From positions 2,294,001 to 2,358,000 of the forward strand of contig NC_089450.1 of NCBI RefSeq assembly GCF_026210795.1: 64,000 nucleotides of DNA. Direction: 5' to 3'. Within the stretch, counting starts at the first letter, position 1. Every line of letters starts with the position of its first letter. This DNA comes from Rhizophagus irregularis. Lineage: Eukaryota; Glomeromycota; Glomeromycetes; Glomerales; Glomeraceae. Under the pieces are notes generated by a model. The model was not told the origin of the DNA and did not search any database. It saw only the letters and a list, made by a program, of their open reading frames with translations. A program made the translations under genes and the position numbers. Shown one piece after another: positions 7,261 to 62,275 of the stretch.

Positions 7261-8041
7261 TTAAGACTTATCAAGAATTCTAACGGGTTTTGTGAGTGTT
7301 TTGTAATACTTTAAAATTTATTCCTAAATTAATATAATTGATGATTCCACTAACTGTTAATTTTTGTGTGATTACGGGAATTTATGTAGATATGTACGAT
7401 TTTAAAGTATTACAACATGCTATATATCAGAATAATGAAATTCTGATCGAGTAGTCGGGTGGTACAATAGGAATCGTACAATAGAACAATAGATTAATTA
7501 TGAAATGATGTACAGAACGCCTATATAAAAACACCATCTGACCTTGTCAAAGGTTTCACCATTTATTATTAATGATTTAATGTCATTACACAATATTGAT
7601 AATTTTTAAGATAACTATAAAAAATTATCTAATCGTTGAAAAGATAGGATCGCAAATGTTGTTCCCAAAATAAATAAAAAAAAGCTTTTCCTTCCGAACT
7701 ATAATTACGTTGAATAAAACTTAAAATAAACTTTAGATTAAATAAAAAGAATAAAATAAAAGATTAAAATGATTTAGTTTCTTGACAGTCAATTGAACTC
7801 TGATTGGAAGCGATTCTATTTAGTAACTAGGCTTCACACTTGACTTATATAACTTTTATTATGTTCTATAGTAAAACAATTCATGTAACTATTAAAAGAC
7901 ATCGTTGTTACACAAAATTATATATGAGTTAAAAATAACCGAGACCCATTTTATTTTTTTTATTTAAATACCCCAAATACCCACATAAATGATAATTTGA
8001 TCTGACAAAAACCATATCTTAATTAATATACTGTAATTTAC
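7261..8041. other. Upstream region of the Asn/Ser-rich gene
   Basis: AT-rich with no gene seen. The last 100 bp carry a motif shared with the other family members (see 7956-7975). Confidence 0.35.
7956..7975 (+). promoter_or_regulatory. Candidate core promoter motif TTATTTAAAyaCCC
   Basis: A TTTATTTAAATACCCC motif lies about 70-85 bp before the ATG at 8042. The equivalent TTTATTTAAACCC occurs about 60-75 bp before the start of the copy at 14129 (minus strand) and of the copy at 49534. Conservation at the same distance in three paralogues suggests a TATA-like core element; its function is inferred. Confidence 0.45.
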
Positions 8042-8617
8042 ATGTATCCTTCACAAGACAATATTACTAGTCGAAGTGCCCACGAATCCAATATTACTGG
8101 ATTCATGAATAATGATTGCGCAACAACAGCTATTCAAACAGAACATCCTCCAAGTATTAACTGCAATTCTTGCAGCCACAATAATAGCATTTCCGGTATG
8201 AACAAGGATGACGATATTTTTCTCTCACATGCTATTATTTCTCCCGACCATAATAACTATCAACAATCCATGCCCAATAACATTTCAAATAATAACGATA
8301 TTATTTCGCCTGCCCATAATGATTACCAGCGGCAAATTTCTAATGACGCTTCAAACGAGAATGTTACTAATATTTCTCCTGGTAACAAATATCAGCAACC
8401 TGTGCCTAATAATGTTTCCTCTTCCCAATTTTCTCCGCAATACAATGATCAAATTTCACCTCGTTCTAATGTCTTTCCTTTACTTAAGTCACTCGGAATA
8501 ACTATAAATTCTCCCCGGACAAGTATTAATATTAATATTATTGTACCATCAACTAGTTCAGATATTCTAAATTTGCTTCAACAAGATGATAGTACCTATT
8601 CGAATAATTCTTCCTAA
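8042..8617 (+). CDS. Asn/Ser-rich low-complexity protein, family copy 1
   Basis: Intact 191-residue frame, function unknown. It begins MYPSQDN and is dominated by Asn, Ser, Gln and Pro, giving a prion-like, probably disordered composition. Conserved blocks shared with the proteins at 14129-13557 and 49534-50092 are: the start (M-Y-x-x-Q-[DE]-N and H-E-S-N-x-T-x-F), a small Cys cluster (I-N-C-N-S-C), the repeated N-N-D-I-I-S-P and Y-Q-Q-S units, and the end N-V-F-P-x-L-x-S-L-G-I-x-I-N-S-P. No signal peptide, membrane segment or known domain is visible. The conserved start, the conserved upstream motif and the maintained frame support a real gene. The +2 overlapping frame at 8208-8501 is a shadow. 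Confidence 0.65.
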   Translation: MYPSQDNITSRSAHESNITGFMNNDCATTAIQTEHPPSINCNSCSHNNSISGMNKDDDIFLSHAIISPDHNNYQQSMPNNISNNNDIISPAHNDYQRQISNDASNENVTNISPGNKYQQPVPNNVSSSQFSPQYNDQISPRSNVFPLLKSLGITINSPRTSININIIVPSTSSDILNLLQQDDSTYSNNSS

Positions 8618-12899: not shown

Positions 12900-14290
12900 T
12901 CAATTATACTACTTTGTTTTATGTAGCTTTACTTCACTTTAACGGTAGTCGACTAATTATAAGTATCTACATTCTACCGCCGGTTATTTATAATAATTCT
13001 TTGCCGAAACACAATTTAGTTAGATTTAAATAGAAAATTTTATTTTGTTCGATTCCTTTAGTTATAGAGGGTAAATTATTTATTAATTTGCTTTCTAAGT
13101 GTTTTAAAAATTTTTGTAATTTGCTCTTCGTATAATTGCTTAAATTAATAAACTGTAAAAAAAAAAAAAATAATAATTCTTTGCCGACACCGACAACGGG
13201 TATTTTATTAAATCCGGAAATTATTAACGACTATAATGAAAGTTTACTTGCATATAGATATGGTGTAAACTTGTAAACTAGCAAAAATAGTCATTAAAGT
13301 ATTAATGAAAAAAAAGGGTTGACCTTTTTTAATATTGAAAGAGAGCAGAAATTTGCAATGAGTAAAAAGTATAGTATTCCATAACACATTATCTCTTGAC
13401 AACATTCTTTTTAAAACAATATTTTATTTAAATGTACTGGTTAGTAGATTACAATATACGATAAATTGAATAAAGAAATAAAACAAGTACAAAAATATAA
13501 GTAAATAAAAAGCTAAACGAATCATCAATATCCTAAATTTCTACATATTTTTTAATTTATTGTTTAAATTGAGTTTGTAAATTATCAGTGATAGAATGAT
13601 TCGGGTAAGCATCTTGTTGACGATTTGGCATAATGATAACGTATGTTTGAGGAGAATTTATAACAATACCAAGTGAATTAAGTGAAGGAAAGACATTAGT
13701 TTGAGGCGAATTTTGATCAATGTATTGCGGGTGGAATTGTGGTGGCGGAGGTGAAGTAGTATTATTAAACATAGATTGCTGATATTTGTCGTTGGGAGAG
13801 ATATTAATATTATTGTCTGAACCGTCATTAAAAATTGATTGCTGATAATTAGTATTGCCAGGAGAAATAATGTCGTTATTGTTTGAAATACTGTGAGACA
13901 TAGTACTATGATCAAGAGAAATGGTCGCATGCGCAACTGAAAAATTATTATTATTCATCACGGAAGCATCATAATTACAGTTACAAGAAGGATCGTTGCA
14001 GTTAATATTTTCCGGTTGAATAAAAGTTTCTGCAGTTGGTTGTGATAACCTATTGCAGTTATGATTAGTGAACCCAGTTAAATTGGATTCATGAGCACTA
14101 TTGTCAATATTTTCTTGTGAATGATACATATTAATGTATTTTAAGTTTAATGAAATGTTGAAAAATGATAATTGCTGGGCAATTGTTGTGGGTTTAAATA
14201 AAAAAACAAAAAATGATCATCATTAACTCAGTGCTAACTCGGATCCAAGTTAAAGTTTGTGTTCCCAGCTTTGAAAAAAAAAATAAATGT
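12900..14290 (-). repeat. Segmental duplication including gene, promoter and 3' flank; inverted partner 49385-50960
   Basis: The gene at 14129-13557, its upstream 160 bp and its downstream region to about 12900 all match 49385-50960 in inverted orientation. Upstream matches include TTTTCAAAGCT, ACACAAACTT and TTATTTAAACCCAC. Downstream matches include TTCTTTGCCGA and ACGACTATAATGAAAGTTT. The whole transcription unit was duplicated, not only the coding part. Confidence 0.7.
13557..14129 (-). CDS. Asn/Ser-rich low-complexity protein, family copy 2
   Basis: Intact 190-residue frame, function unknown. It begins MYHSQEN and has H-E-S-N-L-T-G-F near residue 15, a Cys cluster (I-N-C-N-D-P-S-C-N-C-N) around residues 43-53, Asn/Ser/Gln-rich repeats with N-N-D-I-I-S-P-G and K-Y-Q-Q-S-M, and a Pro run near residue 130. 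The conserved C-terminal block N-V-F-P-S-L-N-S-L-G-I-V-I-N-S-P-Q-T-Y-V-I-I-M-P is shared almost exactly with 49534-50092. The candidate core motif TTTATTTAAACCC lies at about 14202-14190. The overlapping frame 13936-13658 is a shadow. Conservation of frame and promoter argues for a functional gene; a role in condensates or transcription would be speculation. Confidence 0.65.
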   Translation of the reverse strand: MYHSQENIDNSAHESNLTGFTNHNCNRLSQPTAETFIQPENINCNDPSCNCNYDASVMNNNNFSVAHATISLDHSTMSHSISNNNDIISPGNTNYQQSIFNDGSDNNINISPNDKYQQSMFNNTTSPPPPQFHPQYIDQNSPQTNVFPSLNSLGIVINSPQTYVIIMPNRQQDAYPNHSITDNLQTQFKQ

Positions 14291-20536: not shown

Positions 20537-21099
20537 CATCGGGAAATTTTTATAGAAGATATACATCAATAATTATCACTTTATCGATAATTATCCCATT
20601 TTATCATACCAAATAAATCGATAATTAACGTATTATGATGATTATCAATAAATAACTGGGATATTTAACATTAATGATATTTATTGATAATTATCTGAAA
20701 AAATATTTAATGATATTAAGTGTTAAAAATTTTACCGATGAATTTCTATAAGATATTTAACATTAATGATATTTATTGATAATAATCTGAAAAACAAATA
20801 ATGATATTAAGTGTTAAAAAGATTTTATCGATAAATTTCTGTAAGTTATTTAATGTTAATGATATCTATTAATAATTATCTGAAAGATAAATAATGATAT
20901 TAAATGCATGTTAATTTAGGACTGATAGGACATCCTTTAAAAAATTTTCTTGTGATTATGTAACATGATACTATAATTAAGTTACGAGGTTCTTTATTTG
21001 ACAATCACGTGTATCATATCATGTGACATGACTTTCAGCTACTAAGACGCGACGCGATAAGTATTTTTTTTTAAACTTTTTTTTTAAAGTTTAATTAAA

Positions 21100-21400
21100 C
21101 ATTTCTTTCGCCCTTTCCCATTCACACTCTTCTATTTCCTTCTCCCTCTAACCTGTCTCTCTTTCACACTTTCCCTTTCACCACTTCACCCCTTTTACGC
21201 TTTCCCTTTTCTTTTTTTTTCGTTTTCACCTTTTGTTTCATTTCATTTTTCCATTTTTTTCATTTTTGGCTCACTTCTGTTTTTCCCTTTCCTTTTTTTC
21301 ATTCCGTTTAGTCCCCTCTCCCTCTCCCTCTCTTTCATTCCTCTCTTTCATTCCTCTCTTTCAACCTTCCCTTTAATTTAAACACTTCTTAAAAAATTAT
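21100..21400 (+). repeat. Pyrimidine-rich (C/T) tract upstream of the array
   Basis: About 300 bp are almost purely C and T on the plus strand, with CTCCCTCTCCCTCTC and TTTCATTCCTC repeats. It lies just before the first splice-like unit. In the element at 51038 a shorter C/T-rich tract (minus strand, about 52205-52140) holds the same relative place. CT-rich tracts are common in fungal promoters, so it may be a promoter; this is inference. Confidence 0.6.
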
Positions 21401-21439
21401 AAATTTTTTTTTAAGTTACGTTTTCGTTTCAGTGGTTTC

Positions 21440-23335
21440 CTTGTAGAAATGTAAGTAAATTTTTGAGATTTTAAACTTATTTTTTTTCGCATTAGTACTA
21501 ATCTTCCTTTTTTTATAGAATTTGTCTTCATTTCAGCCTTCGGATGTTTGGGAATTCGCGTTTCTGTTTAGAAGGCCAAAAAATGTGTGACGCATCGGCT
21601 TTTTGACTCAGGATTTTATTTAGTAAGACACTAATTTTTTATTAATATTTTTTATTTAACGAACTTTACTAAAAGTTCATTTCTTTTTCTTTTGTAGGCG
21701 GTTCTTCAGCTCTTCAACAAGGGATTTCGGTAAGACAATATGATGATATTTTTTCTTTCTTTATTTCTTTAACGAAAGTTAACATTCATTTTTTCTTCTT
21801 TCTTTAGGTGTTTCTTTCGGTCTTAAAAAGGAGATTAGTGTGTTTAATTTTTTTTCGACTTGGGATTTTGGTAGGCTAATTATTTTTACTTTAAGTTATT
21901 CTTTAACGAAGTTTACTAACTAACCGTTCGTTACTTTTATTTTATAGATGACTGTTCTTTGAAAGGCGAGTATCTTTTTTTTATTTATTTTTTTATAAGA
22001 AATGTAATTCATTTCTTTTTTTTTGTAGGTTCATTTCGCAAAGTTTCATTTCATTGCGAAGCTTAAATTTCTTTTCTTTGAGAAACGTTATACTAACGTT
22101 TCTTCTTTTGTTCTTTGTAGGTACTCTTCGGATTATGTGATTAGATTTTGAAGTTTCATTTTGAAACTTCGAATCTTCAGTTTTTTTTTAATATTATTAA
22201 AGAAACATTACGTTTCTTTATTTATTTTTTTTGTAGGTTCCCTTCAGCTTTCGATTTTGGGTTGGAATGCCAGGTAAGCTTCGAAGAAGCTATCTTTTTA
22301 GTTTTTCTAAAAATGTCTTATTAACATTTCTTTATTCTTTTTTGTAGGTCCCTCCATCCTTCTGGCTTTGATCTCGGATTGCTATTACGGGTAGTTTCAA
22401 AATATGGTTGGTGAAGTTTTCGTTACGAAACTTTAAAATATTTTTTTTTGCTTTTTAAAAGGAATGTTTCTAACGTTCTTTATTATTATTTTTTTTAGGT
22501 TTTGTCCAGTATTGAGTTATGGATACGGAATCGGTAAGTTTCGCAACATTTTGTTGTGAAACACAATTTTTTTATTTTATTTTATTAATAGAAACGTTTT
22601 TAACGTTTCTTTTTCTTTTCTTGTAGGGTTCATGAGGATTTGCTGGATCAGGTACCATTGGAATGTGGAAATGGTAAGTTTCATTATGAAACTTATCATT
22701 ATATATATATATAATTAGAAACGTTAACTAGCGTTTCTTCTTTTATTCTTTTGTAGGTGCTCTCCGGGCTCTTTTTAATATTGGATAACGGTTAGTTTTC
22801 AAAGTTCGTTTCGAACTTCGATTCTTTTTTTTAAAAAAAATTTTCTTTTTTAAAGAAATGTACTAACGTTTCTTTATTTATTTTTAGGTTTCTTCTAGCC
22901 TTGATCTTGGATTGGGATAGCAGTTTTCGTAAGTTTCGGGAGATGGGTAGGGATTCGAGAAGACTTGAAGTTTCATAACAGTTTTGTTACGAAGCTTTAA
23001 AGTTTTTTTTTTTGCATTTTAAAGGAACGTTTCTAACGTTCTTTATTTTTATTTTTTTTTGTAAGTTTTGTGATTCAACATTCCGAAATGGTAAAATAAT
23101 GGTAAGTTTCTCATTACAAAACTTAATTTTATTTTTGTTTTTTACTAAGAAATGTTCGTTCTAACGTTTCTTTTTTACTTTTTTATTTTAGGTACTTTGG
23201 AGTTTCAAGTTCGCTAATTCGCTGAATCGGAACTGGTAAGCTTCTTAACTTACCTTTTTATTTTTTCAGAAACGTTTAACGTTTCTTTTCTTTTATTCTT
23301 TAGGCTCTAAGACTATTTGGGACGTAAACTTCACT
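21440..23335 (+). repeat. Array 1: about 14 exon-like segments separated by intron-like spacers
   Basis: Acceptor-like (T)nGTAG or TTTAG sites recur at about 21697, 21808, 21946, 22028, 22120, 22236, 22348, 22498, 22626, 22756, 22889, 23192 and 23303, at a spacing of roughly 110-150 bp. Each is followed by a 25-50-nt segment, often starting GGTnCTC or GGTTC, and then by a GGTAAGTTTC-like donor. Spacers carry TACTAAC or TCTAAC branch-site motifs before the pyrimidine tract. Many spacers contain two palindromes: one over the donor (AAGTTTCATTATGAAACTT, 22677-22695) and one over the branch site (AGAAACGTTnnnAACGTTTCT). The segments have no shared reading frame, so this looks like a spliced noncoding transcript or an intron-derived repeat. 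Confidence 0.65.
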
Positions 23336-23873
23336 TGTAGGTTTAGATTTGATTAGATTAGTATATATTTAGTATAGATTTAAAAATGTATCATTTGTTA
23401 TTGAATAATGCGACAAATAAAATAATCTAATTTAATTATTTAATCATGAATAAATACAATGATACTTAACTATAGATAATATAACAATTTAACCTGTAGT
23501 GATAATTATCGATTTTTAACTAGAGATAAATATCGATTTTAACAGTATTGATGATTATTGTCAATTTAATCTGATTTCTCCATATCGATACTATCGATAT
23601 ATGTCACGTGATCTTTCCATCGATATATATCCCCTGAAAAAATTTCCTGATGCACTATAAATAATATATATTATTAAGACAACTTCATATACACTAATAT
23701 ATATGTATAGATGGATGTTTATTGTATCGATTATCTGTCATTATCTATACGCAATGTTAAATATTTAAATGTTATAAATACGTCGTTTTCTTCGTACCTT
23801 TTTTTTTTCTCCACCTTAAATATACGCATATTATTTTATCTCCTCTTTATTAATATACGTTATACAAACGAAA

Positions 23874-36489: not shown

Positions 36490-37034
36490 CTTTGCAGAAA
36501 CCTCTGGTTTTCATAAAATATGTTAGCGATATTTTTAAAATATACCAGACATATGATATTCCTATTTATGTTATCTCTGTTTTAACTATATGCTGACAAT
36601 ATGTTGAACATATAATATAAAAATCTTATTTTTATATAGTAACAATATGTTAGAGACATGGTAAAAATATTATTTTGAATGTTAAATTAATATGGTTATT
36701 ATATGCCAAATATGTGTCAGAGATATGATAAAAATATTATTCAAAATATTAATTTTATATAGCTATCATATGGTAAATATGTATTAATAATATAATAGAA
36801 ATTCAATTTTATATAACAATCATATATTGAAAATATATCGAAGATAGAGTAATAATAACAAAATAATATAATAGCCATGTTTCAAAAATAATAAAATAAT
36901 ATAATGATTATATGATAAAAATTTCGATTTAAATTAAAATTTTCTCCAATAAATTCATGTACGACTTGATTTTTAAAAGAATTTCTCTAGTGTAATATAA
37001 TAACATAATGTTAGCAATATAGTTGTCTAGCTGA

Positions 37035-37559: not shown

Positions 37560-38290
37560 TAATAGCCACCTCCATTTCCAGAAAGAATCGCCAAAACCTA
37601 AAAAAGAAGAACCCAAAGAATAAACTGTTAATAAGTTTGTTAAAATAAAATTATTAAGAAAAAAAATTGAAAAAACTTACCGAAATTTCATATCCAAAGA
37701 TTTGGGAGAACGCCCTAAAAAACATAAAACGAACTGTTAGAAACCATCTGTTAAAAGGTGAAAAAAAAATTTGAAAATATACACTTACCAAAATCCAATA
37801 TCTAGAGAAATCCGAAAAACTGTAAAAAAAAAAAGAAATGTGTTAGAAACTGTTCGTTAAAAGATGGAAGAGTTAAATAAAAAAATAGTCAAAAACTTAC
37901 CAGAATGTAACCTCTAAAAAAACCTGAAAGAACCATCTAAAAAAAGAGAAGAAATGAACAGTTAGTAACTATTTTTTAAACTAAAAAAGAAAAAAATAAA
38001 ATTTTACTTGCCGAATTCCCACGTCCAAAGAGACTTAAAGAATTACCTAAAAAAAAAGAACTAAACTGTTAAAATGGTTCGTTAAAATATTAAAAAAAAA
38101 ATGAAAAATATATTTACTGAAATCTGGTTTCTTAAAAAAAAATAAGTTTTGCAAAAAATTGCGAAACTTTCTGTATTCAGAAAAAAATGGAACCTACAAA
38201 AGAAATGAGAAAAGTTAGTAACTTTTCTCAAAAAAAAAGTAAAAATTTGTTCGTAAAACTTACTATATCAAAATCGAACCCAAAAAGGAA
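37560..38290 (-). repeat. Array 2: exon/intron-like units on the minus strand
   Basis: On the minus strand, segments of about 35 nt ending in TTTTG or TTTCG and GTAAGT (for example donors near 37788 and 37680) alternate with spacers. The spacers contain TTAACGAACAGTTTCTAACA-like branch-site blocks and acceptors such as TTTTTTAG before GGCGTTCTCCC (about 37716). About six units are readable. The perfect palindrome GAGAAAAGTTAGTAACTTTTCTC is centred at 38209. The architecture matches the arrays at 21440-23335 and 54200-57450. Confidence 0.6.
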
Positions 38291-38830
38291 AAAGCTTATT
38301 TTTAGTTTAAATAAATAACTGCGGCTGTGGCTGCGGTTATATTAATATTGTATCACATGATTCATGTGACATATAATTTTATATAAAATAGGAGGCTTTC
38401 CCGAAATAAAATTTTTTTTTTTATATTTTTAATGATATTTATATATGTGCTCATATATATACACACATATATATATCTAATATAAATAATATGAATAATG
38501 ATATGTATTCGTCAGAGAATACATTATCAGTTATACTAAATATAATATCAAGTCTATTAAGAAGCTTAATAACGTTGCCTTGAGACTTTCATTAAATTAG
38601 AATAAACCATATACTTTAATTAATTAACTCATTTTATTCTTTATGAGCTCTGTATAATATTATATATTTTATACATTTTAAATGTTTATTTTACATATTC
38701 TTTACAATACACTTTTAGATTGAAACAATTATATTTTATTATTCTTTTAAATCATTTCATCTCTTTTTTAAAAAAAGTATTTAAAGCTAATCTTTGATGA
38801 GATTAGACAGGAACCACTAGAGTAAGAAGC

Positions 38831-39535: not shown

Positions 39536-39922
39536 ATTCATATATCAACAACATATTCAAAATATATTATTCGTATATCAACAACAGCATTCAAAATATG
39601 TTATTCATATAACAACAGCATATTTGAAATATATTAACAACGTATTCAAAATATTCACTATATCATTAGTTTAAGTACATGTTTTAACATACTTTGAAAA
39701 TATTGTAAAAATATTTTATTCATATTACAAAATTATTTACTACATTATATTAGTTTAAGTTTAAATTTTAACATATATTAAAAATATTATAACATTATTT
39801 TATTAATATTACAAACATATTGCGTATATTAAAATATGTAGAACATATATATACCATCTGTTAGTAACATGTAGTGATTATGTCTAACATATTTTGCGAA
39901 AACCAGGGGTTTCTGCAAAGAA

Positions 39923-49533: not shown

Positions 49534-50092
49534 ATGTATCCTTTACAAGACAATAATGGTAACAGTGATCACGAATCTAATTTTACTGAGTTCATTAATG
49601 AAACAACTGCGACAACTATTACTCATGCGGAAAGTATTAACTGCGGTAATCCTTCTTGTTACTGCAATCGTAGTGACATTTCCGTGGTGAATAATGATTA
49701 TTTTCCTGCTGCACACGACCAATTTTCTCAATTACAATAATTACAATCAATCTATAACTCAAAGCACATCAAAAAATAATGATATTATTTCTCCCGGCCA
49801 TAATTATCAGCAACCAACTTTCAATGACTTTTCAAACAATAATTTCAATATCTCTCCTAATAACAAATATCATCAGCAATCCATGTCTTCACCTCGGCAA
49901 TTCCACTCGCAATATATTGATCAAAATCCGCCTCAAACCAATGTTTTTCCTTCACTTAATTCACCTGGTATTGTTATAAATTCTCCACAAACGTACGTTA
50001 TTATTATGCCAGTACCGGTAGCTAATCCAGATATTCGTCAACAAGATACTTGCTCGAATTATTCTATCACTGATAGTCAATTTAGACAATAA
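49534..50092 (+). pseudogene. Asn/Ser-rich family copy 3, frameshifted
   Basis: The first frame (49534-49740) begins MYPLQDNN and contains H-E-S-N-F-T-x-F and the Cys cluster I-N-C-G-N-P-S-C-Y-C-N, then stops. The remainder of the family sequence is in the next frame to 50092: K-N-N-D-I-I-S-P-G, then S-P-N-N-K-Y-H-Q-Q-S, ending with N-V-F-P-S-L-N-S-P-G-I-V-I-N-S-P-Q-T-Y-V-I-I-M-P. One extra base, somewhere in about 49715-49735, explains the break. No intron fits the gap. It may be a true mutation, a programmed shift or an assembly error. The promoter and flanks are those of the intact copy at 14129. Confidence 0.65.
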
Positions 50093-51359: not shown

Positions 51360-51800
51360 ATTATCTATAAGTTTAGGTTCATTTGGAGTCAAACAACCTA
51401 AAAGAACAAAAAAAAAAAGATTGGAAACAAAACCCCATATAGTATCTGCAATCGTCCAAGTCACCAAAGGTCAGCATTCCTACAAAAAAAGAAAGAGAAC
51501 TCCAGAATGTCTGACCTACATAAAAGAAAAGAATTATGAGGCGTCTAATGAAAAGAAACCAAAACAACAAAATAAATCCAAAACTAACCTACAAAAAAAG
51601 AAGACTCTGAAGCAACAAAACTGAAACAACCTACAAAAAGAAAATAATCTGAACCCAACTTACAAAAAAACAAGCAAATTTGAACTGACCTAAAAAAAGA
51701 AAAAAATCCTGAATCATCCTACAAAAAAAAGGACTCCCAAACTGATCTACAAAAAAGAAAAAAGAAACTGAATATTCTCACAAAAAAAAATCTGCTGGCC
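51360..51800 (-). repeat. Array 3: compact (T)nGTAGG units
   Basis: On the minus strand, TTTTTTTGTAGG or TTTTTAGG recurs every 35-50 bp (about 51785, 51745, 51718, 51690, 51665, 51630, 51590, 51520), each followed by about 20 nt of mixed sequence. Donor-like GTAAGT appears only once (near 51661). It looks like a shrunken form of the arrays at 21440 and 54200. The Lys-rich frame read on the plus strand (51349-51624) is a by-product of this array. Confidence 0.5.
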
Positions 51801-51839
51801 TATGAAATTAAATATAAATAAAAAAGAAAGGGGAATAAA

Positions 51840-52140
51840 GAATAAACCAAAAAAAAATATTTTTTTAAAAAGAGGGGTAACGAAGTTAGGAAAGTTAAAA
51901 AAAAATTTTTTTTTAAAGGGAGGACGAAAAATAAAAAATTTTTTATAAAGAGGAAATAGAAATAGAAAGAAGAAATTTTTTTTAAAAAAAGAAGAGTGGG
52001 AATAAAAGAAAAAATTTTTTTTTAAGGGAGTGACGAAAAAAAAATTTTTTTCAAAGGAGAGTGACGAAAAAAAAAATTTTTTTAAAGTGAGGTACGAAAA
52101 ATAAAATTATTTTTAAAAGGGGGTGACAAAGAAAGAAGAA
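51840..52140. repeat. Ladder of A-run/T-run units
   Basis: Seven or so imperfect units of GAAAAAAAAATTTTTTTTAA and then GGGAGTGAC repeat every 30-45 bp. Each A-run/T-run pair is self-complementary. The G-rich spacer is most regular at 52025-52125. Confidence 0.7.
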
Positions 52141-52521
52141 AAATTTAGAAAAAATAACAAAAATAAGACAAGAGAAAGAGAAAGGAAAGGAAAGACAGAA
52201 AGGAAGATCGGAAGATCAAACTCATCAAAGTAAGGGTTTATATAAAAAACAAAAAACGTATCATAACAAAACAATAAACAATCATGTGATCTCGTGTTAT
52301 GATACGGGATTTTTGTAAAATTATCTTCTAAAAATATTAAGTTTAAAAATTCCGTATACATTCCGCATGATTAATTTTTTCTGTATACATTTCTTATACA
52401 TTAGTTTTTTTAAAAAATGTTCAAAAATGAATTGCTTATTAAATATACGGAATTTGTATACGGAATCTATAGAAACGTACAAAAATGTATCCTTTCCGTA
52501 TACATATTTCTTATAGGGATA

Positions 52522-54199: not shown

Positions 54200-57100
54200 C
54201 TTTTTTCTAAAGTTTCAAATTCCTTTTTTTGAAACTATACTTGGGATTTTGGTTTCCAAGCTGGAGACAAAAAAAAAAGGAAATAAATTAAAAAAACCTC
54301 TTTCTATAAAGTTTTGAATTCCTTTTTTTTCGAAACTTACCTATCTCACGCGAGCATCTAACTAAGAGTCGATTTCACCAAGATCCGTGTCTGAGCCACC
54401 TAAAAAAAAAGGAAAAAAAAGAAATTAGCAACCGTTTTTAAAAGATGAAATAAAGATGGAATAAAACAAAAAAAATAATACTCCCACCAAAGTCCCTCGT
54501 CCAAAGAATTTAAGAACTGTCTAAAAAGAAAAAATAACAGTTAGAAAATGCTTGTCAAAATAAAAATCAAGAAAAAATTGCCAAACTCACCGATCACGAT
54601 AAAACAAAATTTTTCTCAGTAAAACTTAATTTCTTTGATAAAAAACACGAAGTAAATCGATTACTATTCCTTTGAGATCTTCAATAATTTCATTTCGAGG
54701 ATCCTTATTAATAACACTAAATCTTCCGTATCTAGTAGCTTTTGAATCCAATGAGACACATACAGCTGCAATACTTGGCCTATTATCACCTCTTCCAGAA
54801 TGGAAAATGTCAGCGCCAAATATCACTGTTGGTTCTGAAGATACAAAATCAATTTGATCATTGGTTAATATTACATTTTGTCCACCTAATTTTGCGTTTA
54901 CTTTCAAAAAGATGTTTGAACAAATTTAATCGATTCCATTTTTTCTCGCTAATCGTTTGAGTAAAATACATTGAGTTGGAACACCCAATTGCGTGTCCCC
55001 AATCCTTTTAATTTCTCCATATATTGGACCCGTTGATCCCAAAATACATATAATGATATGTGGATGATAATTTTTGTTAAACAAAGATTTGTGACAAGCA
55101 ATATTCAACGCCATAGTAATTTCGCCTTGAGGATTCGTATACATGACGTAAGGATCATTCGGGATGTCTAAAGACAGTCTTCTAAAAAAAATAAAATGTT
55201 AGTATACGTTACGTTAAAGAAATATATAGAAACATAAACATTGTCCGATTTCTCACCAAAATCCCACATGTTTGAAGGGTGAAACGAAAATAAAACCTAA
55301 AAAAGAAAGTTTAATAGTTTAGTACCAAACAAAAGACGACAAAAAAAACCAACAAACAATAGAAAAAACCCACCTTAATTCCCACAAAAGAGACATTGAA
55401 ACATAAAAAAGGAAATACCAAAACCTAAAAAGAAAGATAACACTGAAGGGGTCACCAAAACCTAAAAAGAAACCAAATCTACAAAAAAAAGAAAATCAAA
55501 AGTTAATGACGAATACGAAGAAATAAAATGGCAAATCTAAAAGAGAAAAATGAACCTTTAATAGAGTTCGTTAAAATAAAGTAATTTATGAAAAAAAATT
55601 ACCCACCAGAAGAATCCCAATGTTAGAAACTGTTCGTTAAAGGAAACGGTGGTGAATACTTCACTGAAGGAAGGTAGTTCAGAGCTGATATGGAAGGTGC
55701 GGAATTACAGAGACTAATAAAGAAATGCAGAGCAATTGTTAAAAAAAATCCCGAATGCCAGTTCCTAAAGGAAAAAAAAGGAACGTTAGTGACGTTCCTA
55801 TAACAAAAGGACCATATGCTTAACTTACCCTTTCACGAATTCAAGTTTGGGTGACGGTTCCTAAAGTATTTCCGTAAAAAAATAATTTTTTTAATAATTA
55901 AAGACTGAACTTTAGTGGTCCAAAAAGAAACGTTAAAATGTTTCTTAATTAATAAACACATCCACACACACCACTCCTCATTTACCTCTATTCCTGATCA
56001 TCACCGTTTCAAAAGCAGAGACGTTCCTAAAGAATAAGAATAAAGTGAGTAAAGAAAAAAATAAATAAAAAAAATGAAAGTAAACGAAAAATATACTAAC
56101 CTCCCGTCTATTTTGCATTCTTAGAAATCCACTGAAACTGCCATTCCAAAAGAAGAGATCGTTCCTAAAGAAATAAAAATAAGGTGAGTAAAGAAAAAAA
56201 TAAATAAAAAAAAAATGAAAATAAATGAAATAAACGAAAATATACTAACCTTCCATCTATCTTGCATTCTTAAAAATCCACTGAAACTGCCATTCCGAAA
56301 GAAGAGACCGTTCCTAAAGAAATAAAAATAAGGTGAGTAAAGAAAAAAATAAATAAAAAAAATGAAAGTAAACGAAAAATATACTAACCTTCCCGTCTAT
56401 CTTGCATTCTTAGAAATCCACTGAAACTGGCGTTCCGAAAGAAGAGACCGTTCCTAAAGAAATAAAAATAAGGTGAGTAAAGAAAAAAAATAAATAAAAA
56501 AAATGAAAGTAAACGAAAAATATACTAACCTTCCCGTCTATCTTGCATTCTTAGAAATCCACTGAAACTGCCATTCCGAAAGAAGAGACTGTTCCTAAAG
56601 AAATAAAAATAAGGTGAGTAAAGAAAAAAATAAATAAAAAAAAAATGAAAGTAAACGAAAAATATACTAACCTTCCCGTCTATCTGTCATTCTTAGAAAT
56701 CCACTGAAACTGCCATTCCGAAAGAAGAGACTGTTCCTAAAGAAATAAAAATAAGGTGAGTAAAGAAAAAATAAACAAAAAAAAATGAAAATAAACGAAA
56801 AATATACTAACCTCCCGTCTATCTTGCATTCTTAGAAATCCATCAAAACTGCCATTCCGAAAGAAGAGATCGTTCCTAAAGAAATAAAAATAAGGTGAGT
56901 AAAGAAAAAAATAAATAAAAAAAAAATGAAAATAAATGAAATAAACGAAAATATACTAACCTTCCATCTATCTTGCATTCTTAAAAATCCACTGAAACTG
57001 CCATTCCGAAAGAAGAGATCGTTCCTAAAGAAATAAAAATAAGGTGAGTAAAGAAAAAAATAAATAAAAAAAATGAAAATAAACGAAAAATATACTAACC

Positions 57101-57450
57101 TCCCGTCTATCTTGCATTCTTAGAAATCCACTGAAACTGCAGTTCTGAAAGAAGAGACCATTCCTAAAGAAATAAGAATAAAGTAAATAAAAGAAAGAAA
57201 AAACCGAAAATCATAAAATAAAAAAAAAGAAAAAATATATATATATATAACGAAAAAATATACTAACCTTCCCGTATCTCTTATATTCGTTCCAAAAGAG
57301 ACAATTCCTAAAGAAATAAATAAAGTAAGCAAAAAAAAATGAAAAAAAAAATGAAAAGAAAAAATGAAATATACTAACCTTCCAGCTTCCGCACCTCTTG
57401 CATTCTTAGAAGTCCAAATCGCCATTCTGAAAGAACCCGTTCGGTCCGTT
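54200..57450 (-). repeat. Array 4: exon/intron-like units, part strongly homogenised
   Basis: From about 57450 down to 56020 a unit of about 140 bp repeats ten times, eight copies nearly identical (unit marks GTTCCTAAAG at 56161, 56310, 56450, 56591, 56733, 56872, 57021, 57160). In minus-strand reading each has an acceptor (TTTATTTCTTTAG), a 65-nt segment (starting GAACGGTCTCTTC) and a GGTTAGTATATTTTTCGTTT donor side. A TTTACTCACCTTATTTTTAT stretch leads to the next acceptor. Below 56020 units are diverged: the palindrome GGAACGTTAGTGACGTTCC at 55780, CTAAC branch motifs, and GTGAG/GTAAG donors. The 65-nt length shifts frame each time, so it is unlikely to be translated as one protein. The PIWI exon at 55181-54591 is one member of the series. 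Confidence 0.65.
54591..55181 (-). pseudogene. Argonaute PIWI-domain exon with two in-frame stops
   Basis: Argonautes cut or bind RNA guided by small RNAs. This exon covers the first half of a PIWI domain: DIPNDPYVMYTNPQGE, then I-I-I-C-I-L-G, Y-G-E-I-K-R-I-G-D-T-Q-L-G-V-P-T-Q-C, N-A-K-L-G-G-Q-N, and V-I-F-G-A-D-I-F-H-S, which includes the first catalytic Asp. It ends I-L-F-Y-R-D with the second Asp. A TAA at 54928-54926 stands where Gln is usual, and a second TAA lies at 54628-54626. The exon has proper edges (AG before 55181; GTGAGT from 54590). No PAZ, N or MID region and no 3' catalytic His were found. The flanking exons are array segments, not Argonaute, so the exon appears captured. It is a non-functional fragment. 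Confidence 0.8.
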
Positions 57451-57922
57451 CTTGAAGAAACTGAAGAAAAAAAATTAATTAAAAAAAGATCAGATAATCA
57501 AATCTGATCATCCAATCATTTTTTTTCAAGGAAAAAATTTATTGAAGACCGAATGTTAAAGATAATGTGATCATCATGTGATTAGCCGCAATTACGTCAG
57601 GGTAATTTAATTAGACATTTTCAAAACTTGCAACCGTGAGAAGTATAAAAAAGTTTATTTATTAAAATATATATATAGAAGCTTATTTATTAACATATAT
57701 GGGTTTTATATATTAAAGTTTTAAATTTAAATTATTCGCCTAAATAAACTTAAACATATAGACTTTTTCTTATATTAAGTTTAAAAATAAACTTTTATAA
57801 ACTTTTGTTTCTTGATAATAAAATTAGTAATAAAAAAATAATTTTTTTAAATTTCGTAACTAGTACAGTACTTCCAATTTTATAAAAAAAACATTTTTAA
57901 ATTATTATTTATTTTTTTTAAA

Positions 57923-59283: not shown

Positions 59284-59370
59284 ACTGGACAGTTGAAACA
59301 AAAAAAATGCCACTAGCGATCGACCCTATAGTCACGTGATAGCCACATGCCAGCAGCGTTAAAGTTGCTA
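59284..59370. repeat. Subterminal block shared with 39452-39535
   Basis: AAAAAAATGCCACTAGCGAT plus CGACCCTATAGTCACGTGAT and AGCGTTAAAGTTGCTA. It lies 20 bp from the right inverted end here; the partner lies about 385 bp from the right end of its element. Confidence 0.75.
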
Positions 59371-59390
59371 AATCAGAGGTTTCAGCAAAG

Positions 59391-62275
59391 TTTGAAGAAG
59401 TAGAGAAATATTTAAAACAATATTGTGAGCAGAAAGGTTTTGAATATCGTAAGAGAAGAGTTGAATATGATAATGATAATATTGTACGCAAACGTACTTA
59501 TGAATGTACTAAAGCAGCTCAATACCAACCAAAAAAAGATAAAGATCCTGAAAAACATCGTCAACGAAGTTCTGGATCAATTGGTTGTCAGTGGCATTTA
59601 AATGTAACTTGTCCAAAATCAACAGAAGTTATTAAAATCTCCACAATAGTTGATGAACACAATCATCCTTTAAATCCAAATATTATGATTCATGGAGTTC
59701 AATTTCGTCGGTTTTCAGAAGAAATGAAATCTGATATATTAGAGTATCTCACTGCAGTTCCAACTATGGGTGCTCAAACTATATATAGATTATTAACTAA
59801 AAAATATCCAGACATTTATATTCATCGCAAAAACTTATATAATGCAATACAAGAAGTTAGAAGATGTAAGTGAATAGAAGAAAAAGATGATGCAGAAAAT
59901 ATGTTGCAAGATTTGTATAACCTTCAAAAGGAAGATCCAGGTTGGGTAATTGAAACACGTATAATTGGGAATGATTTTCATTTAGGAAGTGTTCTATGGA
60001 TGTCGCCACAACAAGTCCAACTTTGGATGAGATTTCATGATGTGGTTATTACAGATGATACCTATAAAACAAATCGATATGATATGGCATTATCATTATT
60101 TATGATAATTGACAACTATAATCGAACTCGTGTTGTAGCGCAAGCTTTGATAGAAGATGAAACTTACTCAACTTTTCAATGGATTCTTGATTGTATATTA
60201 CGTGCAACTAATTTTTCATTTCCAAGAGTCATTTTTACAGATGGAGATTTGGCAATGGCTGCAGCCATCAAAGCAAAATTGCCTGATACTCACCATTGTA
60301 TCTGCCTTTTCCATATGAATCAAAATTTTATAAAGCAGTTAAAAGGAAAACTTCATGATGAATTTACTTCTTGCCATCAATTGTTTATTAAAACTCGAAA
60401 TAGTTCATGTGTTGAAGATTTTGAAAGAAGGTGGCAACGGTTGATAACTAATTACCCTGCTGCTAAATCTTATCTGCAAAATAAGTTATATCCAATACGA
60501 TTTTCCTGGGCGTATTGTTATACACAAACCCGATTTACAGCTGGTACTACAACGACTCAAAGGGCTGAATCTGAAAATAATACCATTAAATTAGAAGGAC
60601 TTCATACAGCTTCATTAGTTTATCTTACTCAGCAAATCCATATGAGATTGGAAAAGGAACGACAGTATGCTGAATTTGAAGATCAAAAAACTCGAAATAT
60701 TATGACTAGCATACCACATATTGATGAGAAATTCTTTGGATCTATTATTCAAATATTAAAAGAATTTCTTACACCAAATATACTAATAATTGCAAAAAAA
60801 GAAATTTCTGAAAGTATTTTATATGAAGCAATTCAAATTAGTTTGAATTTAAATTTAGATACTTTGGTAAGTTAAACTAAAAATAATAATAATGCGCAAA
60901 GTATGGTAAGGGAGTGTATTATTAGTAGTGAATTAGCGTTGAAAAAGGAGTTATTTAGGGTTAGGGTAAGGGAGTGCGGCATAGTGAATTTGCGTTGAAA
61001 AAGGAGTTATTTAGGGTTAGGGTAAGGGAGTGCGGCATAGTGAATTTGCGTTGGAAAAGGAGTTATTTATGGTTAGGGTAAGGGAGTGCATCATAGTGAA
61101 TTAGCATTGAAAAAGGAGTTATTTAGGGTTAGGGTAAGGGAGTGTGGCATAGTGAATTAGCGTTGAAAAAATAGTTATTTAGGGTTTGGGTAAGGAGTGT
61201 GGCATAGTGAATTAGCGTTAAAAATGAGTTATTTAGGATTAGTGTAAGGGAATGCAGCGTAAAATTAACATACTTTGGCGCAGGATATAGATTTGAATGG
61301 GATATTTGAATGTTATTAAACTTTATTTATTATTTCTTTTTGTAGGATTTTGAATATACACCTCAAGATGATGCTATTGAAAACAAATATGATTACAAAA
61401 AGGCATTACTCAAAGACTTAATGAAAAATATACCAAATTCCTTTATTATTGAAGTATGGCGAGTACAACCATCAATTGGTGCACAACCATGGCTCACACA
61501 ATACGTTATACTTTTACAAGATGGAAGTCACATATGCACATGCTTAATGTTGATCAATAAAGGAATTATTTGTCATCATTTTATCAGAATTCTTACAAAA
61601 AGTGCGTCAGCATTTTTTAATATTTCATTGATTCCGTCAAGGTGGTATAATGATCAAGCTGCACAATTATCTGAAAGTGAAATACGTGCTTCACCATCAA
61701 TTCAATTATTTAATACTTCTCAAAGTGTACCAACTCATTCAAATCTTAATTTGGAATATTCTTATCCAGATATCGTATGTGGAGGAAATATTTTTACACC
61801 AGAACTAAAGGAAAACGTAACTGATCGTCAAAAATATGCAAAAGCTTGTGGATTACAAAAAAAAGCATATAATCTTTCTAAACAATTAGGTCAAGAATTG
61901 GAGTATATTAATCTACTTAATAATTTCATACTTTCTATGGAAGTTAATTTGAGTGAAATGAATGATAAGGAAAATACAGATGAGTTTCAAAGAAAAATTT
62001 CAAATCCAATCTATGTAAAACCTCGTGGAAGACCACTTCAAAAGAGATATAAAAGTTCTTTGGAACAGCAATGTATTAGTCATACAAATGCTGAACTTCG
62101 TACACCTTTAGGAAATGCATGTCAAAATGTTGATTATTCTTTATCTGATAAATTTTCTGAAAGTAGTGGGTCGAATAATTCTAGACAGATGAAAAAATGC
62201 GGAAGATGTAAGCAATATGCAATGCACAATAGGCGTACATGTAATGTAGATTTGTCAAATTTACAACAAAATTAA
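59391..62275 (+). pseudogene. FAR1-MULE transposase, 3' part, with one premature stop
   Basis: Mutator-like transposase. The reading resumes with a FAR1-type zinc-binding domain (CEQKGFEYRKRRVEYDND, later Y-E-C, G-C-Q-W-H and a D-E-H-N-H-P end). The MULE DDE domain follows: Asp in T-D-D-T-Y-K-T-N, Asp in F-T-D-G-D-L-A-M, the C-x-x-H of H-C-I-C-L-F-H-M, and Glu in Q-R-A-E-S-E-N-N. Next come a SWIM zinc finger (C-T-C then C-H-H, in 61530-61580) and a terminal knuckle (CGRCKQYAMHNRRTC). A phase-0 intron spans 60867-61345 (GTAAGT...TTTGTAG). A single TGA at 59871-59873 interrupts the otherwise continuous frame between the FAR1 and MULE parts. With the 5.6-kb insertion upstream, the gene cannot make a full protein. 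Confidence 0.85.
60905..61260 (+). repeat. 56-bp minisatellite with telomere-like TTAGGG core, inside an intron
   Basis: About six and a half units at a 56-bp spacing (GGTAAGGGAGTG at 60905, 60965, 61021, 61077, 61133, 61189). Each contains TTAGGGTTAGGGTAAGGGAG and AGTGAATTnGCGTTGAAAAA. It fills most of the 479-nt intron of the transposase. Confidence 0.85.

Follow-up and report, generated by a model that had tools for sequence, protein, structure and literature searches.

Rows of micro-exons and intron-like units with splice-signal hairpins inside inverted-end mobile elements of Rhizophagus irregularis

Micro-exon genes, such as the schistosome MEGs and the aphid bicycle genes, code for secreted proteins, and Pack-type elements carry pieces of host genes, an intron array not being a known feature of them. 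Non-autonomous CACTA/EnSpm elements (CMC, Plavaka) resemble the clearest array elements described here in their CACTGGTC/CACTAGTC ends and 3-bp target duplications, but differ in that the interior of the array elements is a row of intron-microexon units. Introners, in the relevant sections of PMC9860276, likewise link inverted-end DNA transposons to spliceosomal introns; they are, however, single introns in genes, whereas here many introns lie inside one element that has its own leader and AATAAA, and the arrays do not take the form of single introns inserted into host genes. Symmetrical stwintrons of the Hypoxylaceae, as portrayed in part of PMC8469720, are comparable as proliferating fungal introns with inverted repeats and possible double-stranded RNA, but they sit in host genes without target duplications, whereas the hairpins here surround individual donors and branch sites and the introns lie in transposons with duplications. 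Within the open PMC literature (subscription papers and preprints being outside its scope) we found no account of such intron arrays; a term search over portions of two R. irregularis papers, PMC11075540 and PMC8647823, returned no occurrence of the word intron, and over portions of PMC10234402 the word came up only in connection with gene models, methods and references. What lacks a counterpart in this limited literature search is the array; its carriers are ordinary inverted-end elements.

The window, by which we mean the whole stretch of 64,000 nucleotides of R. irregularis DNA that was analysed (contig NC_089450.1, positions 2,294,001 to 2,358,000), holds one such element on its plus strand, with the following parts.

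20537..23652 (+): focal non-autonomous inverted-end element, delimited by aligning copies and comparing ends and flanks
20537-20551 and 23638-23652: focal termini, CATCGGGAAATTTTT and inverted CATCAGGAAATTTTT, with the 2-bp flanking repeat CA
20660..20903 (+): 93-nt AT-rich tandem repeat close to the left end
21100..21390 (+): CT-rich tract, putative transcription start region
21440..23335 (+): array of about 14 micro-exons and U2-type introns, with branch sites often within hairpins
23336..23652 (+): 3' part of the element, with two AATAAA at most 150 nt past the last acceptor

Structurally, the element runs from the 93-nt AT-rich repeats through the CT-rich tract and the array to the two AATAAA and the right end, and the best 80 nt of the CT tract are 93% pyrimidine on the array strand versus 59% on the opposite strand. 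The introns (about 75-95 nt) all run in a single direction with short exons between them and carry strong donor, branch and pyrimidine-TAG signals; with donor, branch site, pyrimidine tract and YAG in order, they are U2-type by sequence. A looser chain finder read 12 donor-acceptor introns in the array, and not every unit of this copy still has both its donor and its acceptor. In the genome searched (146.7 Mb, 32 contigs), the focal element gave at least 149 matches (40 of 410 candidates scored), and its ends recur in copies elsewhere, the end pattern having 75 matches at two mismatches or fewer versus 0 for the reversed control. Eight distinct two-ended copies were compared, L028 being an inverted duplicate of L027 and counted once with it: the flanking repeat is 2-bp in five (CA in the window, TA in L018, TG in L019, AA in L020, TA in L021) and 3-bp in L017, and no repeat flanks the ends of L015 and L027. 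With CATCRGG rather than CACT at its ends, a mostly 2-bp flanking repeat and a 3-bp duplication in only one of the eight copies, the focal element falls outside CACTA/EnSpm by these criteria. Five relatives were aligned to it, one of them without the left end; the number of units differs among copies of the family, and alignments of repeated units, in this family and in the CACTG loci, may place some units wrongly. By eye, differences within the family often look like C/T or G/A transitions, many at CG, as methylation decay would give.

An earlier note on this DNA had described an ordered array of about 14 units at 21440-23335, and that array is real. Defining a unit as yTAAC, then at least 8 nt at 80% pyrimidine or more, then YAG, we counted 10 units on the plus strand, nine of them with a donor word upstream, against means of 0.27 and 0.07 and maxima of 3 and 1 in 300 dinucleotide shuffles; a random control of the same composition, one of the two tests by which the note proposed to judge the array, gives no similar series, and the opposite strand holds no unit of the same definition. 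Strong acceptors number 16, above all 300 shuffles (maximum 13), and the exon starts share more than shuffles do across 14 columns, with columns 3-14 alone only about 2 s.d. away. Over the whole window and both strands there are 26 units versus 2.75 in 20 block shuffles. The window has a G+C content of 23-32% in 2-kb windows, and it yielded no Rfam match at gathering scores and no tRNA.

Equivalent arrays had been claimed at three further places, with all four said to lie within inverted-end elements. The features at these places are listed below.

37560..38310 (-): short array of about 6 related units, with inverted arms at 36490-36526 and 39884-39920
51360..52250 (-): pyrimidine-rich leader with a weak acceptor-rich array
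54200..57500 (-): mixed array of tandem units, scattered units and a Piwi fragment
54629..55063 (-): Piwi-domain fragment with an internal stop, inside the array element

The units at 37.5 kb look like focal units, and that array is plausibly a short version of the focal type in an inverted-end carrier (arms at 36490/39920), but by unit count alone it is within chance: 37560-38290 (-) has three units, two with a donor, against shuffle means of 0.23 and 0.06 and maxima of 3 and 2, and its seven strong acceptors are within the shuffle range (maximum 9). Equivalence is weak for 51360-51800 (-), where strong acceptors (9 versus a shuffle mean of 2.76 and maximum of 7) and donor words (6 versus a mean of 1.92) exceed the shuffle means but no branch-plus-acceptor unit was found. 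At 54200-57450 (-), with four units (shuffle maximum 3), one of them with a donor (shuffle maximum 2), and 23 strong acceptors narrowly above the shuffle maximum of 20, the claim is partly borne out: a tandem set of intron-like units lies together with a Piwi fragment and scattered units. The tandem set, at 56012-57203 (-), comprises about eight near-identical units of 139-149 nt that read as 10 GTTAGT...TTTAG introns, and the stretch has 43 matches in the genome; six plus-strand 'branch' units called there are false, because the minus-strand donor GTTAGTATA reads TATACTAAC on that strand. Inverted ends are borne out for the first array and plausible for the second, and were not confirmed for the third and fourth. 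Single signals tell less than ordered units, and this bears on the reading that the pattern arose by chance in AT-rich, pyrimidine-rich DNA: in the arrays at 37.5 and 54-57 kb, single acceptor or donor counts lie within or close to what shuffles reach, which suits chance, but the focal ordered units, the hairpins and the genome-wide patterns given below far exceed their controls. For the focal and CACTG arrays chance is refuted, for much of 51360-51800 it is still possible, and as a general account it is extremely improbable.

The Piwi fragment consists of two stop-free pieces that, searched separately, gave E-values of 1.2e-5, which is below cut-off, and 1.1e-14. Over a length of about 4 kb that takes in the Piwi fragment, copies L003 and L004 show a similarity of 91-95%, the homology with L004 starting at about 58838, and the match of L002 stops before the fragment; as L003 and L004 both cover it, the Piwi piece travels with the element. 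The element at 54-58.8 kb is in this respect like a Pack-type element, with the fragment inside the copied unit, and the comparison is touched by a report, in part of PMC8647823, that MULEs occur close to AGO genes in R. irregularis. Adjoining the Piwi-bearing array element is a MULE-type transposase region at 59343-62275 (+), with FAR1 (E 1.1e-10) and MULE (E 1.8e-23) matches, and between two parts of that region, at 60926-61255 (+), a 56-nt unit is repeated in tandem about six times, with a TTTAGGGTTAGGG stretch that resembles telomere repeats. Elsewhere in the window, three related open frames occur in both orientations, at 13557-14216 (-), 49691-50092 (+) and 8027-8617 (+).

Genome-wide, the suggestion of a repeat class of micro-exon/intron-like units in mobile elements is upheld: the branch hairpin plus pyrimidine pattern GTTNCTAACNGTTCNTTTNTT has 800 matches at one mismatch or fewer versus 5 for its reversed control, and the donor-hairpin pattern GATTCGTAAG, followed by 2-10 bases and GAATCTT, has 682 exact matches versus 0. 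Patterns with reversed-pattern controls were used here, a covariance model having been dropped owing to poor alignment. The 100 matches listed out of the 682, grouped by eye, fall into 34 places on contigs 1-5, several of them with a single match, which by rough proportion would make about 230 places for the whole set. The elements that hold arrays have ends of two or more clearly distinct types, CATCRGG on the one hand and CACTGGTC with its CACTAGTC variant on the other, and a single end shared by all arrays was rejected because the end types differ.

Arrays are clearest in CACTA-like elements, which have 13-18 introns each; the L042 element, which gave at least 204 genome matches (40 of 457 candidates scored), contains 17 introns of 74-95 nt alternating with exons of 37-50 nt. 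Eleven two-ended elements were tested (L040-L042, L046-L051, L054, L056; L043-L045, L052 and L053 fall outside this set), with CACTGGTC at both ends, or CACTAGTC in L054 and L056, and 10 of them have a perfect 3-bp target duplication (L040-L042, L046-L050, L054, L056), which the L051/L055 element does not have. CACTA-type ends and 3-bp duplications being hallmarks of CACTA elements, the best carriers are CACTA-like. In the 10 elements with target duplications the best 80 nt are 0.96-0.97 pyrimidine on the array strand versus 0.61-0.62 on the opposite strand. An AATAAA follows the last intron by 108 nt in five CACTA-like elements and by about 360 nt in two (L042 not being usable for this), and none was found downstream of the array in L054 and L056. 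Transposase_21 and Plavaka genes occur elsewhere in the genome, and no transposase lies within the CACTA-like array elements. Transposase_21 genes were observed within about 2 kb of arrays at L054, L055, L056 and L057, and no autonomous array carrier was found among these four loci, which were picked by eye from the matches listed: at L054, L055/L051 and L056 the array element has its own ends and is a neighbour or nested insertion. At L054 the array element starts inside the transposase reading frame. At L043, near position 617, a CACTGGTC end lies inside a second array, which suggests that array elements insert into each other.

The arrays have a further property that the earlier note had not recorded, namely hairpins at the branch sites and, in CACTA-like elements, at the 5' splice sites. 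In CACTA-like arrays a perfect stem has the donor in its loop or next to it, with an exonic left arm and an intronic right arm (CCAAGATTC-gtaa-GAATCTTGG), and the branch site lies in a second stem (GAACGGTTA-ctaa-TAACCGTTC). Of the 236 introns at 16 loci, 199 have a stem of 7 bp or more at the donor, 165 at the branch site and 148 at both. The first six CACTA-like loci (77 introns) have donor stems in 84% and branch stems in 75%, versus 3% each with shuffled flanks; the eight focal-family loci (44 introns) have branch stems in 48% (2% shuffled) and donor stems in 2%, the focal array itself (10 introns) 60% and 0%, and the 37.5 kb array (6 introns) 33% and 0%. Ordinary introns, taken from CCT-chaperonin genes, have branch stems in 4% and no donor stems; only 15% of them have GTAAG and 7% CTAAC/T, so the array signals are the stronger. 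Of 100 introns predicted at six loci, these 27 were retained, as lying inside the matched gene intervals of five loci with predicted borders, and 73 were dropped (L033 on the wrong strand, others reaching into flanks). Array introns were picked by donor words and pyrimidine-YAG, which makes GTAAG and YAG over-represented among them; neither the branch motif nor hairpins served as criteria, and as the scans took whole loci, a few introns may be flanking DNA (one in L042).

The hairpin arms change together. Of 170 distinct units, 146 carry a 6-nt complement of the exon arm within their own intron, versus 2331 of 12044 pairings between arms that share no 6-mer, and branch arms match their own partner in 65 of 182 cases versus 6.4% of 30464, both comparisons being uncorrected for the relatedness of units; the branch-arm test reads the last branch-like word only and so sees fewer stems than the main count. 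Mean folding z is -3.99 for CACTG arrays (43 introns, three loci) and -1.43 for the focal array (10 introns), and no folding beyond shuffles was seen in the 37.5 kb array (+0.81, 6 introns) or in the 27 ordinary introns (0.00). Predicted openness at donor and branch is 0.63 and 0.68 in CACTG arrays versus 0.42 and 0.56 in ordinary introns, so that CACTA-like hairpins seem to display the signals and not to bury them; the focal group, with donors predicted to be more closed than in ordinary introns (0.21 versus 0.42), departs from this pattern. The closed focal donors would suit a silencing decoy or trigger, in which poorly spliced introns feed stalled spliceosomes or hairpins into the host small-RNA pathway, as would the many hairpins per RNA and a host thought, in part of PMC8647823, to have many AGO genes. 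Against such a decoy, donor and branch bases in CACTG arrays are more open than in ordinary introns and array signals are stronger, not weaker, than ordinary ones, and we regard it as distinctly unlikely.

Evolutionarily, the bases of the splice signals vary less than those of the exons. Counting donor GT, positions +3 to +5, the branch five and YAG as splice-core sites, six focal-family copies vary at 15 of 132 such sites, 61 of 225 exon sites and 171 of 738 other intron sites, and 11 CACTG loci at 33 of 185, 223 of 503 and 143 of 556. Matched by base in the CACTG loci, G varies at 0.081 in the donor GT and 0.064 in the acceptor versus 0.201 in exons, and A at 0.000 in the branch versus 0.090 in exons; the few majority-C sites at donor +3 to +5, at 0.429, run against splice-base conservation. 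In the CACTG loci, sites in branch stems show no conservation beyond that of other intron sites, and the element ends are conserved too (0.032 at the 3' end). Exons evolve fastest, as expected if splicing, and not exon content, matters. That they are non-homologous as a rule, as described earlier, is not borne out: in the 56-57 kb and CACTG arrays they are near-identical.

Such a row of exons could belong to a protein-coding micro-exon gene, for example one from a family of secreted effectors whose short exons are symmetrical, and the arrays are indeed like micro-exon genes in their many very short consecutive exons. Stop-free runs are mildly long in L041, L046 and L047 (reached by 33, 12 and 23 of 300 shuffles; the L042 spliced-frame figure and element length, which include flanking DNA, were left out), and short indels are multiples of three in 17 of 63 exon cases versus 22 of 201 in introns. 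However, exon lengths fall in all three phases, 46 of the 63 exon indels break the frame, exons vary most, and the joined-exon stop-free run of the focal array is ordinary (reached by 79 of 300 shuffles). Phase-compatible exons with a conserved frame were not found, a coding gene is very unlikely, and the array exons are probably non-coding.

Another rival reading is a repeat that needs no splicing, in which the palindromes would be protein-binding or replication-derived DNA motifs (transposase-binding ones, for example), amplified from one intron-like ancestral unit, with matching arms restored through template switching at imperfect palindromes and not through selection on RNA. In its favour, the stems are palindromic as DNA too, many units closely copy one another, branch stems have no special conservation, and the element ends are conserved as much as the splice bases. 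Such a repeat does not predict that palindromes centre on GTAAG and CTAAY with pyrimidines and TAG after them, that donor, branch and acceptor bases vary less, or that focal-family arrays have splice signals but no donor palindrome, and we think it rather unlikely. The related proposal of the earlier note, an intron-derived satellite, fits the apparent growth by tandem units, but a pure satellite predicts neither the lower variability of splice bases nor an array bounded by a CT tract and an AATAAA. Among the readings that note had offered, spliced non-coding transcripts fit best, being favoured by the mixed exon phases and by exons that vary most and splice-signal bases that vary less; that the arrays hide or express the element's RNA is possible.

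We therefore come to an explanation built on sequence comparison, to which we give about an even chance: the array would make up the body of a DNA transposon that is non-autonomous and encodes a non-coding transcript with many introns. Transcription would start in the CT tract, the spliceosome would take out the introns one by one, and arrays would grow through tandem duplication of the unit, with hairpins confining the splice signals to local loops and so keeping near-identical units from cross-pairing. Most speculatively, copies that splice well might leave more progeny because an RNA from which many introns are spliced is taken for host mRNA and withstands silencing by small RNAs. Non-autonomous DNA transposons can move without a transcript, which makes a benefit from spliced RNA less obvious. 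In Caenorhabditis elegans, introns act as a barrier against nuclear RNAi, according to part of PMC5554785, and AGO-loaded small RNAs of 24 nt occur in R. irregularis, according to part of PMC8647823; within the present material the sole link between arrays and RNAi is the Piwi fragment in one element. Only tentatively, and as somewhat improbable in its full form, do we posit a class of protein-less transposons whose introns present the branch point (and in one group also the 5' splice site) in a covarying hairpin of their own, the array having moved between families with different ends and being kept because serial splicing shields it from RNAi.

The interest of the arrays lies in their unusual anatomy. 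They could help to classify the unclassified repeats of R. irregularis, which make up 24% of the genome with high-copy genes set aside (in the portion of PMC8647823 concerned) or about 30% (in that of PMC11075540). If spliced, they would offer a natural test bed for the effect on splicing of hairpins at branch points and 5' splice sites, a single genome holding hundreds of related units. They would then also be a case of selection on splicing in protein-less elements, and would allow a direct test, in a fungus, of whether introns protect transposons from RNAi.
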